Source of the DNA: Branchiostoma floridae
Lineage: Eukaryota > Chordata > Leptocardii > Amphioxiformes > Branchiostomatidae
Direction of reading: 5' to 3'
DNA: 64,000 nucleotides
NCBI RefSeq assembly: GCF_000003815.2
Contig: NC_049991.1
Span: 4,589,857 to 4,653,856, forward strand
This document shows positions 5,683-23,400 of the stretch, piece after piece. The position numbers and the translations under genes were made by a program. The notes under the pieces are model-generated. The model was not told the origin of the DNA. It searched no databases and worked only from the letters and a program-made list of their open reading frames with translations. The number at the start of each line of letters is the position of its first letter. Position 1 is the stretch's first letter.

Positions 5683-5782
5683 NNNNNNNNNNNNNNNNNN
5701 NNNNNNNNNNNNNNNNNNNNNNNNNNNNNNNNNNNNNNNNNNNNNNNNNNNNNNNNNNNNNNNNNNNNNNNNNNNNNNNNNN
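5683..5782. other. Assembly gap, 100 N
   Basis: Exactly 100 Ns, the usual placeholder for a gap of unknown size. It could hide further exons of the minus-strand gene or the missing STUB1 first exon. Confidence 0.95.
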
Positions 5783-6977: not shown

Positions 6978-7438
6978 GAACCACTCGCCACACAATGCCT
7001 ACAAACATGGCTACCTTCCTCTCTAATCTTAGCCCGTCATGTGACCGGATTGGCGAGTTATGATTGGTGAAAGCTGGGGTGCGCGGAACTATGGCAGGCT
7101 GTGCTGCAGTACCGGCGTGGCCGCAGGGGGCGCACGGCGCCAAATTCAAATTAAACTAAACCGCTGATGCGAAACAGCCGTGTGTTCAACCCTAATCTAA
7201 CCCTAACCTAAACCTGGCAACCATAACATAAGTTATTAGATTAATCCTAGAACGATGCCAAATTGTCCTGATCCACTAGTACTACTGTAACAGCAAAACT
7301 GTTGGTGTCAAAATGTTCTATACTCGGAATTTCATCCATATGGCAAAGTGGCCGGGTCGCTTGCCATAGGGACATCACCTACCTGTATTACTATTAGTAT
7401 ATCAGTTCTAAATTGGTCGCTACTTCCATTTCACTTAG
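6978..7438. promoter_or_regulatory. Possible divergent promoter region upstream of STUB1 and the minus-strand gene
   Basis: The stretch is relatively GC-rich at 7070-7145 and lies between the minus-strand start at 6977 and the STUB1 TPR exons. No TATA box is seen. A short run of CCCTAA-like repeats (7187-7215) resembles telomeric sequence but is only four imperfect units. A first STUB1 exon encoding the usual KEQGN-type TPR helix was looked for here and not found. Confidence 0.3.
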
Positions 7439-8058
7439 ATCAAGAACCAGTCAGTAGCAGCCTACATGTACTTCACCAAATGAGTGCTGTGTTACCTGAA
7501 GCTACAACAGTGGCCGCGTATGATTAGCCAAACTACCACTTGAGCCACAGGGCCACAACCTAAATTGTCCACCATTTCTATTTCACATAGATCAAGAACC
7601 AGTCCGTACTTCACCAACCGAGCGCTGTGCTACCTGAATCTTCAACAGTGGGAACACTTTGCCAAACTACCACTTGCGCCACAGGGGCATAACCTTAGAT
7701 ATATATCCTGTTCTAAATTGTTCACTGCTTCCTTTTAGATTAAGAACCAGTCTGTAGCAACGTACTTCACCAACCGAGCACTGTGCTACCTGAAGCTACA
7801 ACAATGGGAGCTGGCCGCACAGGACTAGCCACACTACCACTTGTGCCACAGGGACATAATCACTGCTTCTATTTCAATTAGATCAAGAACCAGTCCGTAG
7901 CAACCTACTTCACGAACCGAGCGCTGTGTTACCTTAAGCTACAACAGTGTCAGCTGGCCACATAAGATTAGCCAAACTACCACTTGTGCCACAGGGACAC
8001 AACCTTAAGCTTAGATTTTGATGTATCATTCTAAACTGCTCACCATTTCTGTTTCAAG
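7439..8058 (+). repeat. Tandem array of four partial copies of the STUB1 TPR exon acceptor side
   Basis: Copies of the intron-exon junction begin at 7439, 7591, 7739 and 7882, followed by the real exon at 8059 (spacings 152, 148, 143 and 177 bp). Each holds a pyrimidine tract and AG, about 75-80 nt homologous to the start of the exon ([20 protein letters not shown]), then the shared intron text ccacttgtgccacagggaca. The copy at 7739 is intact to ELAAQD and then stops; the others have changes. The second half of the exon is not in the repeat. Confidence 0.85.
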
Positions 8059-11000
8059 ATCAAGAACCAGTCCGTAGCAACCTACTTCACAAACCGAGCA
8101 CTGTGCTACCTGAAGCTTCAACAATGGGAGCTGGCCGCACAGGACTGTCGCCGGGCGCTCGAGCTGGACAACAGATCGGTCAAGGGTCACTTCTTCCTGG
8201 GACAGTGTCTCGTGGAACAGGACTCGCATGACGAAGCCATTAAAAGTTTCCAAAGAGGTTCGTAGCCTACGTTGTTGCTTTTTACATGACTATTAGCATC
8301 AGAAAGTCTAATGATTAACTGGCATTGATTTGATGAATACAATGTACAATGTATACCATTTTATTTTCAAATTTAATATGAACATGATAAGGGCTAAAAA
8401 TAAAATGAATAAATAACCAAGAATAGGAGGTATTCCTGCATATGGATTATTAGGTGATTTATTTTGTTTTGATGTATTGAAAATTTAAAGCAGCATCTTG
8501 ATTTAAAAAAAAATAACTGCAGTACTTGTACATCACTGCTAGGTGGCACTGCAAACATGAACAGTGGTAAGCACAGAATACTTTGGGGAAAGGGAAATAT
8601 TCTACGTTTGCGAGCAAATGTTTGACTTTCTAATTTGTATATCTATCCCAAAACCTAGATTACAGATGACAACTGGCAAAAAATTATTCCCACAGCCCAT
8701 GAGCTAGCTAAGGAATAGAATTGTTAAAGGGAAATATTCTGCATTTGCTAGCAAATATTTACTCTCCAATTTGTATGTCTATTCATTCAGAAGATAGCCA
8801 CTAACAAGAATTTATATTTTCTTAGCCCATGAGCTAGCTAAAGAACAGAAGGAGAACTATGGAGACGACCTAGCCAATGCCCTGGTGGAAAGGGAAATAT
8901 TCTACATTTGCTAGCAAATATTTACTTTCTTATTATGACTAACAAAAATTTATATTTCCCCAGTCCATGAGCTAGCTAAGGAACAGAAGCTGGACTACAG
9001 TGAAGACATTGACAGCTCTCCGGAAAAGGAAATGTTCTACATTTGCTAGCAAATATTTACGTTCTTATTATGACTAACAAAAATTTATGTTTCCCCAGTC
9101 CATGAGCTAGCTAAGGAACAGAAGTTGAACTATGAAGATGACATTGCCAGCTCACTGGAAAGGGAAATATTCTACATTTGCTAGCAAATATTTACGTTCT
9201 TATTATGACTAGCAAAAATTTATATTTCCCCAGCCTATGAGCCAGCTAAGGAACAGAAGCTGGACCACAATAAAAACATTGGCAGCTGTCTAGAAATTGA
9301 AATATTCTACATTTGCTAGCAAATATTTACTTTCTTATTATGACTAACAAAAATTTATATTTCCCCAGTCCATGAGGTAGCTAAGGAACAGAAGCTGAAC
9401 TACAGTGAAGACATTGCCAGCTCTCTGGAAAGGGAAATATTCTACATTTGCTAGCAAATATTTACTTTCTTATTATAACAAAAATTTATATTTCCCCAGT
9501 CCATGAGCTAGCTAAGGAATAGAAGCTGAATTACAGTGAAGACAGTGCCAGCTCTCTGGAAAGGGAAATATTCTACATTTGCTAGCAAATATTTACTTTC
9601 TTATTATAACAAAAATTTATATTTCCCCAGTCCATGAGCTAGCTAAGGAATAGAAGCTGAACTATGGAGACGACAGTGCCAGCTCTCTGGAAAGGGAAAT
9701 TTTCTACATTTGCTAGCAAGTACTTACTTTCATGTATATCACGACTAACAAAAAATTATGTTTCCCCAGCCCATGAGCTAGCTATGGAACAGTAGTTGAA
9801 CTATGAAGATGACATTGCCAGCTCACTGGAAAGGGAAATATTCTACATTTGCTAGCAAATATTTACTTTCTTATTATGACTAGCAAAAATTTATATTTCC
9901 CCAGCCCATGAGCTAGTTAAGGAACAAAAGCTAAACTACGGAGACGACAGTGCCAGCTCTCTGGAAAGGGAAATATTCTACATTTGCTAGCAAATATTTA
10001 CCTTCATATATATCACGACTAACAAACATTTATGTTTCCCTAGCCCATGAGCTAGCTAAGGAACAGAAGCTAAACTACGGACTCCGAGACGACAGTGCCA
10101 GCTCTCTGGAAAGGGAAATATTCTACATTTGCTAGCAAATACTTACTTTCATATATATCACGACTAACAAACATTTATGTTTCCCCAGCCCATGAGCTAG
10201 CTAAGGAACAGAAGCTAAACTACGGAGATGACATAGCCAGTGCCCTGAGAATGGCCAGAAAAAAGCGGTGGAGTGTCCAGGAAGAGAAGAGAATAGAGCA
10301 GGAGATCGAGTTACAGTCCTATCTCAACAAACTACTCATAGGTGCAAAGGAAAAGTAAGACATTTTGTTTCTTTGTTTTATTCTAAAGTGTGCCGGATAG
10401 GTCAAATCATTATGCTACTACATGCTGTAGTTCTGTGTACCTATACTCATGTTCATGTTCATGTTCAGGTTTATGTTCAGATTTAGATCCAGAGGTTCAG
10501 GTTCAGGTCTGGACTTATAAGATGAAGAAGTCCTGACAGGAACCTATGACACCTGTGTGCATGAAATACTTTTTTTTGTCTACAAAGTCATGTAACATTG
10601 AATGTTGGTATGATTTCTACATTTTGAAAAAAATACATGCAAAATTATATACAGTGAATAATGAACATAAAAATTCAGGCATCACAAAACAGCAATGTTT
10701 TTGTCTTCTTCCAGCACATAATCTATAAAAGTTTTTATATGGTATATTGAGAAGTTTGGAGGAATGCTGAATGCTTTTAGTAGAATAGTAAATGCTTTTT
10801 AATGTGAACGGGACAAGTGAGTATTACATATATATCGTAGGAAATACTACATGTATATTTTCATTATCTAGTACATGTATTTAGTATTGAAACATAAACA
10901 CTTAGTCTTCTGGAGTTAAGGGATTCTTTACTATTAAGTGAGTAATGCATCAACCTCTCCAAACATATATCATATTTGCACTCTTTTTTTTTTTAATTCT

Positions 11001-14000
11001 GCTAATTATATCTGGCATTTATTTTCCAGAGAAGTAGCAGAAGTCATGGAAGAGGGGAGTGACAACGACAAATGTCTCGATGAAATAAAAAGAATAGAAG
11101 AAACGCACGTGAGTTACACCTCATCTGAAACACAAATTTTTGTCTGCAGTCAGAAATTAATCCTAACAGTCAACAGCATTGGATAGGATTAGTTAAGAAC
11201 AATTTTCTGATCTTAATTACTTCTGTAAAATGGGAGGTATTGTTCTTGGTTTGCTACATGCATGGGGACACTGACTGGAAGTAAGGTCAAAGGTCCCAAA
11301 ATTGGAAATCAGGGTTTATCTCCTGTCCTGTGTTGCTATTCAGTCTTGCTATATATGTCTATTGCCTTATTGGAGTAGGTGGAAATGGAATATATTTATA
11401 CCATTAATCAGCGAGAAATTAGCAGTAACAAAAAAATCACACAGTCACACAGAAATCAAGTATGATATATGACATCAATGATTTCTTCTTTTATGCTTAT
11501 TGTTGTCTTTACCCTGCAGGATCATTACATGGCTGAACTGAACACATTATTCTCACAGGTAGATGAGAGACGAAGGGTAAGGTACACTATTAAATAATAG
11601 TATATACATTTTGTAAATGATCACATAATCTGTAGTTTGTAGTTTCTGAACCATAAACTATACAGTGAATTTATCTTTGTGCAGTATGATTGCACCTTCA
11701 TAAACACAATTTCCCTTCTATTTCTTATATTTGTACTTTTTGTAATGCGATAGACGTAATGTTGTCAATTTCTAACTTACAAACGGAAAACTAAATGGTT
11801 CCCCTTGGTCCCTCAGTATTGGATAGTTTCTAATCATGTTATGGTATTGAGGTGATTTGTCAATTTTCTAACCAATGAGAGAGCTACTTCATTCATATAA
11901 CAGGTGGTCCCACAGAAATTATGTTTAAAATTACCGTTTATGGCACTGGGTGATAATGCCTTTGGATTGGTCAGTTCCTAACCAATCAGGGAGATTTTAG
12001 CTCTCCCTGACAATGATGTAACCAAATATGGCATACACATGAATTCACATGGGAAAAGGGACGAAACAAACATTTTTTTGATTTTCCGTTGTTTTTTTCT
12101 CCCAATGTGTGTTTAGAAGCGGGAAGTTCCTGATTATCTGTGTGGTAAAATTAGCTACGAACTGATGAGGGATCCGTGTATAACTCCCAGCGGTATCACG
12201 TATGATCGAAAAGACTTAGAGGAGCACCTTCAGGTATGTCCTAATGCTCGTTGGGAGGTGTTCCGTCGGATCCTGTGCAGAAGTCACTCCGTCGTTTTCC
12301 CTTCTTAAAAAAAAAGTAGCAAGTACAAGTAAAAGAAGAACAAAAGAAATGTTATATAAATGGACCTCTTTCTACTGATGGAAATTTTCTTTTCTTTTTT
12401 TTAACTTGTGTTGTTAAAGTCATGCCTTTTACTAAGTTTTAGAAACTGAAATTGACCCTAAAAACTTGATAACTAATAGTTGAGTTAAAGTGTGTAACAA
12501 CGTTTAGGCTGTAGATACAGTGGGTTGTTATCCACTGTGTCTAGGGTATGGTATTGGAAAGCAGAACCCAACCCTCTCCTCCCATTGCCTTTTACATCCC
12601 CAACCAAAGTCAGATACTATCCATGTTTATAACTTGGTGAAGAATGTTGTGTAAAGTGCTTTCACAAAGGACTGATATCGACCTCTTGACCTCTAACCAC
12701 ACCCAAAGCCAATTGACTGTGCAGTTTTTAAAATTCATACATGTACATGAAGCCTACCATTTAAAAAAAAAATCATACATGGACAATTGTAGCCTACCAT
12801 TTAAAAAAAGCAAGAGTTCGGAGAATGCATATCTCCTAGTTAGTGGGAAAAACGACTGACTGACTTCTGCACAATCCCTGTGGACGCTCGGCGGTAACCA
12901 CGTCTTTTTATGTTTTGTGTACGTAGACGAGAGCCGTCCCCGACTTTCTATGTTGTCAGATTAGCTTTGAACTGATGAGAGACCCCGTAGTAACGCCCAG
13001 TGGTATCACGTACGATCGCAAAGACATCGAGGAACACCTACAGGTACATACTGGCTAAGTATACTGTGTGCAGAGAAACAATCGGAGATAAACGAGGGCT
13101 TCTACAGAACTTCCTGTTCTTTGTGTGAAAGCCTTTTGGTTTACAAATGAACCTTGAATAGTTTCATGAGGTTGGTAAGTCACTGAGTACTACAGGGATA
13201 AACAAGTCCATTAGCCCGATTGTCTTGGACAAGTAAAATTGCTGTTGGGGCAAGTAGAAGTGCTTCCCCACTTGCCCAACGGGCAAGTAAGAATTTCCAG
13301 ATGTGACCCGCTCAAATTACCACTGAGTGTGACAGTACATGGGGCTGAATGCCTGCCTATATTGACCATGTAATTTTTAAGCCAGTAGAAGCATCGATTT
13401 TGGATGATAGGGCCACATCAAAACTCAAAAACTGAAAAAAACTGAAAGTGAAAATACATAGAAAAATGTAATTTAAATTTCAGGCAAGTGAAAATTTGGT
13501 TCGGGCAAGTAAATTTTTTATGTACTTGCCCGATAGGACAAGTGAGTTTTTGAAAACTTGTCTAACCCTGTACTAACAAGTTTCTTTGTACACAACCAAG
13601 ATTTTTTTCGGTGGACATTTTAGCGACTGTCTGTCACCTTCGTCAGGGCAATTCTGACTGGTTCACATTGCACTGCAGCAATAGGTGTTGCTGCTTACCG
13701 ATGTGGTCTATGTATAAATACGTTATGTCCAGGACTGCACTGCAGCATAGATGTTGCTGCTTGCAGATGTGGTCTTTGTATATTGTGTAAATACTTTACG
13801 TCTGGGACCGCATTTGTAAGCAGCGCCACCTATGCTGCAGTACAATGTGTGAACCAGTCAGAATTGCCCTGAAGAAGGTGACAGGCAGTCACCAAATCAT
13901 TGGTTGAAGTAAAACACTAGGTTGAGTCTTGTTAGTCATTCTCAAATAAAGAATACATGTCAGGCTTTTAGCGTCATGTAGGAACTACAGACAGAGTAGA

Positions 14001-14427
14001 AAAATTGTGTGTGTGGGGGGGGGGGGGAGGGGGTCATTTCAACTTGCCCTTTTCCTCTCTCCCTGTCAAAAGAGTTCTCCGTAGGCTTTATGGATAAAAC
14101 AATTATCTTGTAGCTTTGAGTGTGAATCAACATAAATGCTGAATCCAGTTTCTTGGAAGGAAAATTATAGGTAAAAGTGGCAGTGTGTATGTTTGAGAGG
14201 GGGGTGCATTGAAGTTGTATGGGGCAGTACGATCCGTTATGTTTTGTTAATCGTAAGGTTTTATCACTACTCTCTACACTCATGTTTCCATTTTGTTGCA
14301 GCGGGTCGGCCATTTTGACCCCGTAACTAGGCAACAGCTGACCAAGGATCAACTGATCCCCAACCTAGCCATGAAGGAGGTCATCGACCATTTTGTCAAG
14401 GATAACCAGTGGGTGGACGACTACTAA
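8059..14427 (+). CDS. STUB1: STUB1/CHIP, co-chaperone E3 ubiquitin ligase (first exon missing)
   Basis: Exons: 8059-8257, 10189-10354, 11030-11108, 11520-11576, 12117-12233 or 12927-13043, 14302-14427 (TAA). With one U-box exon the visible protein is 247 aa, against 303 in human; the N-terminal 55-60 residues are not found. CHIP binds the C-terminal EEVD of Hsp70/Hsp90 through its TPR domain and ubiquitinates clients through its U-box. TNRALCYLK and VKGHFFLGQ carry the Asn and Lys equivalent to the human carboxylate clamp N65 and K95. The helical linker follows ([14 protein letters not shown], then [15 protein letters not shown]). The U-box has [17 protein letters not shown] and [10 protein letters not shown], and the protein ends WVDDY. 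All phases join. A poly(A) signal is at 14506. The gene is convergent with JMJD8. Confidence 0.95.
8696..10188 (+). repeat. Tandem array of eleven partial copies of the third visible STUB1 exon junction
   Basis: Acceptor-plus-exon copies start at 8696, 8826, 8964, 9099, 9234, 9369, 9500, 9631, 9770, 9905 and 10044; the real exon starts at 10189. Spacing is 130-145 bp. Each unit has an acceptor (mostly ttccccag), 40-50 nt coding for a variant of [14 protein letters not shown], then tggaaagggaaatattctac, a TAG, and a shared AT-rich intron segment. Most copies read through to EREIFYIC and stop; those at 8696, 9500, 9631 and 9770 have an earlier stop. The remaining part of the exon was not copied. 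Confidence 0.92.
12117..12233 (+). CDS. STUB1: STUB1 U-box exon, variant A
   Basis: 117 bp, phase 0 on both sides, gtttag acceptor and gtatgt donor. It encodes 39 residues beginning [19 protein letters not shown] and ending [10 protein letters not shown]. It is nearly identical to the vertebrate segment ([19 protein letters not shown] in human). The E2-contact Ile is kept; the following Phe is Tyr here. Confidence 0.93.
12927..13043 (+). CDS. STUB1: STUB1 U-box exon, variant B (duplicated alternative exon)
   Basis: Also 117 bp and phase 0, acgtag acceptor and gtacat donor. It encodes [19 protein letters not shown] and ends [10 protein letters not shown]. Compared with variant A it changes the first residues, CGK to CCQ, Tyr to Phe in the E2-facing helix start, and CIT to VVT. 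The frame is intact and most differences are conservative, so it looks selected rather than decayed. Including both would double half a U-box, so mutually exclusive use is the natural reading. Confidence 0.9.
13193..13570. mobile_element. MITE with CAGGG ends, 5-bp target duplication, inside STUB1
   Basis: Starts CAGGGATAAACAAGT and ends ACTTGTCTAACCCTG. Flanked by TACTA at 13188-13192 and 13571-13575. Subterminal copies of the GGCAAGT / ACTTGCCC motif lie on both sides. It is in the last STUB1 intron. A related fragment is at 50289-50452. Confidence 0.8.
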
Positions 14428-20400: not shown

Positions 20401-23400
20401 TAATGGTTCCCACTCTGTGTAGTTTTGGTCCCCAAACAGATAGAGAGTTTCTGGCAAGAAAATGGCAAAATGAACATCAGTGAAAATAAGCCTGGGGAGA
20501 TATTGAAGTTAAAAAATGTACTAGTCTTGTGTTTGACAGATTTCATCTACCGACAAGGAATTTGAATAAAATCTTGAAAAAGTACACATATATAGTCTAA
20601 GGAACTTATTATTGGTAACTTAAAAGTTTTTATAATATGGATGACAAAGAAATCATGACGTCCTCAGAGCAACACAAGACAGAAACAAGTGGACGATAAA
20701 AGAATTCAAAGTTGGGCAAAAAATATGTTGCTTTCATGATGATATGTAGTCAGGAAGATTAATTCAACAGATAAAAAACAAAACTGATCATAATGCACAT
20801 ATACATTTATACATTTATACTGTATAATCAAGTCAAACTGAGTGTAGCTGTAATTGACGGTACCATTGCCGAGTGTGTTGGCGTCCTGAGGTCGCAATAT
20901 CTCCTCCACATAATGCTGGAAACTAACTGGCACTGCAGAAACACATATAGATATTAAATGAATAACACATAAAGGAATGGTGTGGCCATAGTGTAGACTT
21001 CTGCAGGCAGACACAGAAATCTGCACAGAATTGCATGTCGGTGTCCGACCTTGTACAGGTGTATACGGCCCTGGTCAGGCCCGTACTTGAGTATGGCCAT
21101 GTTCTCTTAGTTGGTTGCACCAAACAACAAGAACAGTTAATCGAGAAAGTGCAGAGGAGAGCACTAAAGATCATCTCTCTGGGTGGCAGGAGAAGTGTTC
21201 CGGATTTGCCCACACTCAAGGAGAGACGTGAACTTGCTGCCATTAAGCTACTCAAGCAAATGATGAACCCGGATCACCCGCTACATGACATGGTCCCTCC
21301 GGTCAGGTCAGAGGTCACTGGGAGGTCACTTCGAAGCTCATGTAGTATCTCGGTCCCAAAAGCAAGGACCTCCAGACTGCGCAACTCATTCCTACACTAT
21401 ACAATCAGACTGTACAACAAATCAATGACTGGTGCCTAAGTGTTTTATTTGTCTATGTACTGTGTATGCCATGCGTACTGTACATGTTGTCTAGTCGTTG
21501 TAAGTATTTACTCTGAGTCACATTGTAAAGATCAACGGCATTCAGAGATGCTTCTGCTAAGAATTAATCTCTGTAAGGTTGATTTGATTTTAATGAATAA
21601 AGAATAAAGAGAATTCTGTTGTCATAATGCAGAATTCTGTAGCCAAATACAGAATTCTGTGGTCGTAATGCACAATTCTGTAGCCATAATGCAGAATGCA
21701 GTGGCCATAATGCAGAATTCTGTGGCCATCATGCAGAATTCTGTGGCCATAATGCAGAATTCTGTGGCCATCATGCAGAATTCTGTAGCCATCATGCAGA
21801 ATTCTGTGGCCATCATGCAGAATTCTGTGGCCACAATGCAGTATTCTGTGGCCATAATGCAGAATTCTGTGGCCATCATGCAGAATTCTGTGGCCATCAT
21901 GCAGAATTCAGAATGTGGCCACAATGTAGAATTCTGTGGCCATCATGCAGAATTCTGTGGCCATCATGCAGAATTCTGTGGCCATCATGCAGAATTCTGT
22001 GGCCATCATGCAGAATTCTGTGGCCATCATGCAGAATTCTGTGGCCATCATGCAGAATTCTGTGGCCATCATGCAGAATTCTGTGGCCATCATGCAGAAT
22101 TCTGTGGCCATAATGCAGTACTCTGTGGCCATAATGCAGAATTCTGTGGCCATAATGCAGAATTCTGTGGCCATCATGCAGAATTCTGTGGCCATCATGC
22201 AGAATACTGTGGCCATCATGCAGAATTCTGTGGCTATAATAAATGCAGAATTCTGTGGCCCTAATGCAGTACTCTGTGGCTATAATGCAGAATTCTGTGG
22301 CTATAAATAGTATAATGCAGAATTCTGCGATAAGTGCAGAATCAAGTCTTAACCTGAAGGCGCAAGTCTTAACCAGAACAATAAAATGCTACACTAATTG
22401 TCACCTTTTGTGTATGAATAAGTGTTTGCAGAGCTCAGAATGACTTCCTTGCTTCCATAGTTCTCCACTAAAGAAGACTTGGAACACAGTTTTCTGAAAT
22501 TCTGAGAAAAGAGAAATATCAATTAAGCACAATGCAATTTAAATCATCACAGGAATTAGAAAATGAATATTCAAACCTATTTCAAAGTATCTTATGTAAA
22601 ACTAATACTACTGCTCTTGTTTTAGCTTGACAATGTGTATGAATTGCATTACTAGTAGTGTATAAATTGCATTAGGCCAAGAAAAATGTTGTGTTTCTGT
22701 TTAACAGTTGTAAGAATATGTCATTCACTAGAATCTTACACTTAGTTAGTCTTATGCTTGTACAGTGTATACATTATTTGCATGATTACAATGTGTTAAA
22801 AGCTATCATCGCTGGTGAATTTCAGTCTCAAATTGTTGAATTTGTTGGATCACTTTGTCTTTTAAAATCTCTTTAAAAAAAAGAGTGAGACAGAGAAAAA
22901 TCTTACCGCCTTTTTTTCAGAACTGTAACCTGAAACACAACCTTTGTTTTTGTACTTGTAGGCCTTACTAAGTACTATATAGGTACTTACAGAGTTGTCT
23001 GTTACACTCCTGAATATGACTGGTGCTTTCTCTGCATATCTGAAAGTTCGAAATACATACACAACATTTATGATTAACACGTATATGTACATATGAAGGT
23101 AACAGATTTACATTTACATACATCTTCTACCACAGATATTGGTCATTCTCTCAGTGATTTTGCAACATCAAATAATGATTAACTAATTGTATATTCTAAT
23201 GGCTCTCCTCCTAGGAATGCAACACTAGAAAGAGATCGAATAACATTAACAATGTTGAAAAAACCTTACATCTGCTTGGAAGTTTGATAAAGGGTTAATG
23301 CCTAATGCCCGCTCCTTTGCTATAAGAGGAAATAAAACCAATGAGTGAGCGAAGCAACTGAGCAAGTGACTAACCAAATACAAAATAAAGTCTTCTCATT

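Follow-up and report, generated by a model that had tools for sequence, protein, structure and literature searches.

The STUB1 (CHIP) gene of the lancelet Branchiostoma floridae probably contains a true pair of mutually exclusive alternative exons for the first half of its U-box, derived from an old tandem exon duplication, with exclusion possibly assisted by a stem that the intervening intron is predicted to form. CHIP, a central ligase of protein quality control, connects Hsp70 and Hsp90 to degradation, and vertebrates are not known to have more than one form of it. The exon pair itself comes from a first-pass annotation of this DNA, whereas the intron stem is described here for the first time. 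The window, that is, the whole stretch of 64,000 nt that was analysed, lies at C13:4589857-4653856; the genome searched comprises 513 Mb in 431 contigs.

The STUB1 locus and its two U-box exons

STUB1 is encoded on the + strand, where exon 2 to the last coding exon span positions 8059-14427 of the window, as established by tblastn against human CHIP and by reading the splice borders. The tblastn query is what we take to be the human CHIP sequence. A genome search for the U-box family (13 matches) yielded a second STUB1 copy on the other strand of the same contig, at C13:3932893-3934856, with both versions of the U-box exon (A and B below) and the last exon. The exons in the window are as follows.

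8059..8257, + strand: exon 2 (TPR); tblastn match to human CHIP 55-119, 68% identity; AG/GT borders in both copies
10189..10354, + strand: exon 3 (end of TPR and linker helix); tblastn match to human CHIP ~120-175; AG/GT borders in both copies
11030..11108, + strand: exon 4 (linker); open frame joining exons 3 and 5; AG/GT borders in both copies
11520..11576, + strand: exon 5, putative upstream splicing partner of A or B; tblastn match to human CHIP 205-225; second copy identical
12117..12233, + strand: exon A, first U-box half, vertebrate-like, with Tyr at 237; human CHIP 224-262
12927..13043, + strand: exon B, second version of the first U-box half; human CHIP 225-262 over the aligned part
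14302..14427, + strand: last coding exon, second U-box half and stop; tblastn match to human CHIP 261-303; second copy identical

The gene is identified as CHIP/STUB1 by a TPR half followed by a CHIP-type U-box, human residues 55-175 and 205-303 being matched exon by exon in tblastn. Exon 4 gave no tblastn match of its own to human CHIP; it differs between the window and the second copy at two third positions. For exon 1 (ATG...TKAI), the genome search returned a match only with the second copy, apart from one further match on C17 (52% alike). The window has a gap of 100 N at 5683-5782.

Tandem copying is also seen elsewhere in the gene. Positions 8678-10240 are filled with tandem 135-nt copies running into the real exon 3 (10.6 copies over 8800-10240 according to TRF), the unit consisting of the exon 3 acceptor, the first ~55 nt of exon 3 and a piece of intron. 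This array, a run of decoy acceptors, is present in the second copy too. Positions 7417-8002, ahead of the real exon 2, hold four partial copies of its start, all decayed. Parts of three different STUB1 exons have thus undergone tandem copying, and of these only the U-box copy appears intact as an exon. The intron after B harbours a nested palindrome (13619-13896; arms of 49 nt at 92%, and of 39 nt and 28 nt at 82%), found in both copies.

Exons A and B are 117 nt each and in phase 0 at both ends, flanked by AG and GT (AG/AAGCGG...CTTCAG/GTATGT for A and AG/ACGAGA...CTACAG/GTACAT for B); coordinates, lengths, phase, borders and translations all agree with the first-pass annotation. Judged by eye and unscored, the borders of A, B and their neighbours are ordinary GT-AG and U2-like, and the pair does not show the incompatible mixture of U12 and U2 sites. 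The donor of B looks weaker than that of A in the same unscored inspection because the usual G at +5 is absent. A direct-repeat search recovered the two exons as a repeat of 131 nt at 75% (12106-12236 and 12916-13046), and their likeness in register, followed in 10-nt bins, drops to background within ~10 nt on the upstream side of the exons and within a few nt on the downstream side. The resemblance is beyond chance. Being adjacent, homologous, equal in length and phase and intact at their borders, A and B have the sequence features of a tandem duplicated exon pair. Among the open-access titles and openings of abstracts listed, we found no report of mutually exclusive U-box exons in STUB1 or in lancelet, and the name STUB1 does not occur in the accessible main text of a survey of mutually exclusive exons in human (PMC5740500).

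The two exons are alike at 87 of 117 nucleotides (74%), and the 30 differences are distributed as 6, 5 and 19 over codon positions 1, 2 and 3, changing 9 of the 39 amino acids (30 identical). Estimates of dN and dS were 0.136 and 3.75 (the latter saturated) by NG86 in Biopython, and 0.137 and 1.00 by LWL85. Neutral simulations with 30 differing sites produced a mean of 19 amino-acid changes and a minimum of 11, none of the 20,000 runs giving nine or fewer; in the same setup, the exon pair stayed stop-free in 33% of runs. Because so few changes did not arise in any of these neutral histories, exon B has evidently remained translated and under selection ever since an old duplication. To judge from the codon pattern, purifying selection has clearly acted on both exons, and the earlier suggestion of two alternative STUB1 exons is well supported by the sequence, with 19 of the 30 differences at third positions and a dN of 0.14 against a dS of at least 1. 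Exon A is identical to human CHIP at 34 of 39 residues and exon B at 30 of the 38 aligned. The spliced forms match the Pfam U-box profile (PF04564) over its full length (positions 1-73 of 73) with 111.5 bits for A and 115.1 bits for B, the cut-off being 21.4, and for both forms the top PDB hits are CHIP structures (2OXQ, 2C2V, 2C2L and others), in agreement with the assignment of both exons to the first half of the CHIP U-box. The A form is nearer to vertebrate CHIP (156 bits, versus 142 for the B form).

The inverted counterpart and the intron between exons A and B

The window with 20 kb upstream was compared with 120 kb around the second STUB1 copy, considering blocks of at least 300 nt. Positions 7181-63888 of the window are largely collinear, in inverted orientation, with C13:3872022-3940613 (minus) on the same scaffold. 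Among the 46 blocks listed, 28 are 92-98% alike and the others 75-92%; indels are numerous, and a few blocks depart from the collinear order. Since amphioxus heterozygosity is 3.2-4.2% according to the accessible portion of PMC12500494, the inverted counterpart is likely a haplotype that was left uncollapsed and assembled into the same scaffold; alternatively, it may be a real inverted duplication. Near-equal U-box matches in opposite orientation are also present on one other contig, at C10:250981-251187 (-) and C10:3653942-3654148 (+), and are perhaps another uncollapsed haplotype. Over exons 2-5, A, B and the last exon, the two STUB1 copies differ at 13 of 861 coding nucleotides, all 13 at third positions, leaving the protein unchanged. 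Exon A has one such difference, and exon B is identical letter for letter. The order of A and B is the same in both copies, with a start-to-start distance of 810 nt in the window and 849 nt in the second copy.

The A-B intron measures 693 nt in the window and 732 nt in the second copy. Its first 68 nt align with 65 identical positions (three substitutions) and its last 108 nt are 94% alike, whereas the middles (~520 nt in the window and ~560 nt in the second copy) do not align and share only chance-level matches of 13 and 18 nt. A long inverted repeat extends from 41 nt past the donor of A to 54 nt before the acceptor of B, and its arms persist between the copies while the loop between them is unalignable. 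The features of this intron, with positions relative to the two splice sites, are listed below.

12257..12271, + strand: 5' arm of the outer stem (A donor +24 to +38), from folding; forms in some contexts only
12274..12301, + strand: 5' arm of the core stem (A donor +41 to +68), inverted repeat of 28 nt, 89% complementary
12503..12672, + strand: interspersed repeat within the window copy's loop; 39 other genomic places among the 40 scored of 1442 candidates
12846..12873, + strand: 3' arm of the core stem (B acceptor -81 to -54), inverted repeat; holds a branch-point-like CTGAC with its A at -64 (12863)
12874..12888, + strand: 3' arm of the outer stem (B acceptor -53 to -39), from folding; forms in some contexts only

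The stem was spotted by eye ahead of its statistical tests. Minimum-energy folds of the intron contain it in both copies, and the window intron has a folding z of -4.5 (20 shuffles). The duplex between the intron ends has an energy of -66.0 kcal/mol in the window, compared with -39.9 +/- 5.0 for 1000 shuffles (5.2 sd beyond), and of -59.9 kcal/mol in the second copy, compared with -41.1 +/- 4.9 for another 1000 (3.8 sd beyond); neither value was reached by any shuffle. When the same geometry was slid over both strands of the window, 4 of the 2428 segments reached -66.0 and 16 reached -59.9, three of those four being located in a 21-nt tandem repeat. This repeat occupies 21610-22301 with 32.6 copies and pairs strongly with itself in the scan. 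Pair probabilities were computed for each copy in three contexts, six in total. Four central pairs of the core reach probabilities of 0.98-1.0 in the window and 0.86-0.995 in the second copy, and the pairs at the ends of the core are weaker (0.56-0.92 for +41/-54 and 0.23-0.27 for +65/-78). In the outer stem, the tested pairs are at 0.08 or less in the window copy once the exons are included; in the second copy, +35/-50 stays at 0.68-0.75 and +24/-39 falls to 0.08 or less.

Five substitutions between the copies fall in the stem zone (+34, +45, +60, -59 and -70). With the pairing read by hand, +45 and +60 still pair as G-U, -59 breaks a pair (A-U to A.C) and the other two are unpaired; for a test of compensatory change, two copies offer too few changes. 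Of two neighbouring CUGAC motifs upstream of B, the one at -64 is shared by both copies and the one at -68 is not. Conservation of the arm stretches is by itself no sign of selection because the block that includes the intron after B is conserved to a similar degree (93.5%). Genome searches with the 70-nt and 108-nt stretches that hold the arms matched only the two STUB1 copies (two of two places each), suggesting that the arms are probably not the inverted ends of a transposon, in a search that skips very common words.

Use of the two exons and the role of the stem

The selection on A and B points to their use one at a time. In this scheme, exon 5 would take one of the two, A or B, as its splicing partner, and the last coding exon would follow directly. 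The resulting two CHIP ligases would share the TPR/Hsp-binding half and the second U-box half and differ in the first U-box half. Selection on both exons argues that the A-to-last and B-to-last junctions are both in use, and the same is suggested by the E2 contacts D229, I235 and H260, which would work only if each exon directly joins the last one. Use of one exon at a time appears likeliest since a transcript with A followed by B would leave the half domain of A partnerless. The reading frame does not impose this choice: because 117 is divisible by 3, a transcript with both exons stays in frame, the joined A+B translation is open and message decay does not enforce exclusion.

A reading in which the exons are alternative and not exclusive, with A, B and A+B transcripts all occurring, agrees with these lengths. 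In the A+B protein, a complete B-type U-box would be preceded by an additional half U-box, and the joined translation of A, B and the last exon is indeed open with a full U-box match; mandatory inclusion of a duplicated exon is on record for vertebrate COE genes in the title of PMC2394523. We nevertheless regard this as improbable, since A before B would have no partner half, yet A retains 34/39 identity to human CHIP, and since the stem would be expected to hinder A-to-B joining if it acts by steric blocking. A different fate of the pair, in which exon B is a dead or never-used remnant, would fit the lack of G at the +5 position of its donor. It is very unlikely in view of the synonymous saturation with only nine amino-acid changes, the intact borders and the identity of B between two copies that diverge by several per cent in non-coding DNA. 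Least credible of all is an assembly artefact in which the pair or its flanks were made by joining haplotypes. The inverted, mostly 92-98% alike counterpart on the same scaffold, the occurrence of exon 1 only there and the 100-N gap invite such a suspicion, but A and B are far less alike than haplotypes would be, with 87 of 117 nucleotides in common, and follow each other in the same order in both copies.

Within the preferred reading of a mutually exclusive pair, the predicted stem may, on weaker grounds, aid exclusion. It would bring the donor of A and the acceptor region of B together and bury the branch-point-like CUGAC at -64 of B, with the consequence that A would not readily be spliced onto B, and/or that B would stay off until the stem is opened. 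Alternatively, the exon pair could be real and the stem could promote A-to-B joining, by drawing donor and acceptor close to each other, or be a by-product with no role, a reading to which we give a substantial chance, somewhat short of even. Intronic pairing can bridge distant splice sites and favour their use (PMC11802352, accessible portion), conservation of the arm stretches hardly differs from that of the intron after B, and the 16 window segments mentioned above pair as well as the ends of the second copy. Against a promoting or idle stem speak the survival of the arms between copies with unalignable loops, pairing well beyond that of the shuffles and the position of the 3' arm over the branch-point-like motif of B.

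The most specific form of stem-aided exclusion is tentative, and we hold it to be rather unlikely: one intra-intron stem would make a long intron sterically unspliceable and hide the branch motif of B, with no docking site, as a switch between CHIP ligases of different E2 or chain-type behaviour. Pairing would then collapse the full intron length, placing the donor of A too near the branch point of B, and the loop would be free to change while the arms are held. The steric limit between donor and branch point is given as ~50 nt in the accessible part of PMC7969005. With an assumed branch-point A at -30, the path counted by hand is ~32 nt with the outer stem fully formed and ~64 nt, beyond that threshold, with the core only. 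A docking-site/selector model is not indicated because neither arm was found to have a comparable competing partner in the introns of the window upstream of A and downstream of B. The best partners there, calculated for the window copy, have energies of -26.2 to -34.9 kcal/mol versus -50.1 to -54.8 kcal/mol for the arms with each other, and all but one are inside the range of 340 shuffles. The exception (-34.9, against a shuffle minimum of -34.3) is a G-rich partner of the 3' arm at ~14174, which falls 15 kcal/mol short of the pairing between the arms.

Protein consequences and comparison with known systems

The first-pass annotation placed the changed residues in or beside the E2-binding loop and proposed different E2 preferences for the two forms. 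The accessible part of PMC2396629 lists D229, I235, F237 and H260 as CHIP-E2 contacts in this exon, and R263, V264, P269, V270 and R272 as contacts in the next. All of these are kept in the A and B forms except 237, which is Tyr in A and the usual Phe in B. Here the unusual residue is that of A, B keeping the vertebrate Phe, and Tyr is a conservative change. Exon B further has CQ for GK at 233-234 and VV for CI at 244-245 (human numbering). These residues, C233, Q234, V244 and V245, are outside the contacts listed in that part of the paper, and 233-234 adjoin I235. A different E2 preference is possible, with weak support, since D229, I235 and H260 are identical and the change at 237 is conservative. 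The F237A mutant loses UbcH5 activity and keeps Ubc13 activity (PMC2396629, same portion), so position 237 could in principle bias E2 choice. It is possible, if only tentatively, that the Tyr/Phe swap tunes this choice. A tuning around I235/F237 is our first guess for the difference between A and B, and stability and dimerisation are other candidates.

Two selected U-box halves in lancelet would represent a natural experiment on how residues of the E2 site tune the output of a ligase. Compared with vertebrate CHIP, the protein is the same and the U-box is full-length, and lancelet adds an alternative first U-box half. The stem, with arms kept and loop changed, would be a compact and testable example of what may be exon exclusion by RNA structure in a non-vertebrate chordate. 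In FGFR2, a stem is said to lie inside the intron between the mutually exclusive exons IIIb and IIIc; it reportedly acts via cell-type factors, and double inclusion of IIIb and IIIc is reportedly out of frame. An intronic double-stranded element for this pair is named in the title of Muh et al. 2002, as it appears in the reference list of PMC7404189. A double-stranded element accompanies the FGFR2 pair and, as predicted, the STUB1 pair, whereas double inclusion in STUB1 is in frame. The docking-site/selector systems of Dscam, 14-3-3zeta, Mhc and MRP (PMC6071210, accessible portion) likewise combine tandem duplicated exons with intronic pairing. Unlike in these systems, the STUB1 stem is single and wholly contained in one intron, with no comparable second partner found. 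Exons 4a and 4b of OGDH are, like the STUB1 pair, ancient duplicates, and OGDH includes one per transcript; according to the accessible part of PMC7969005, their exclusion is ascribed to steric hindrance, the first exon's donor lying too near the branch point of the second, and a stable hairpin is predicted in the intervening intron, as in STUB1. Human OGDH branch points are 25-41 nt from the donor in the same source, whereas in the STUB1 intron of 693 or 732 nt only the stem could shorten the path. The STUB1 pair resembles those of OGDH and FGFR2 in the structure or spacing of the intervening intron, a likeness that does not by itself place it with either.
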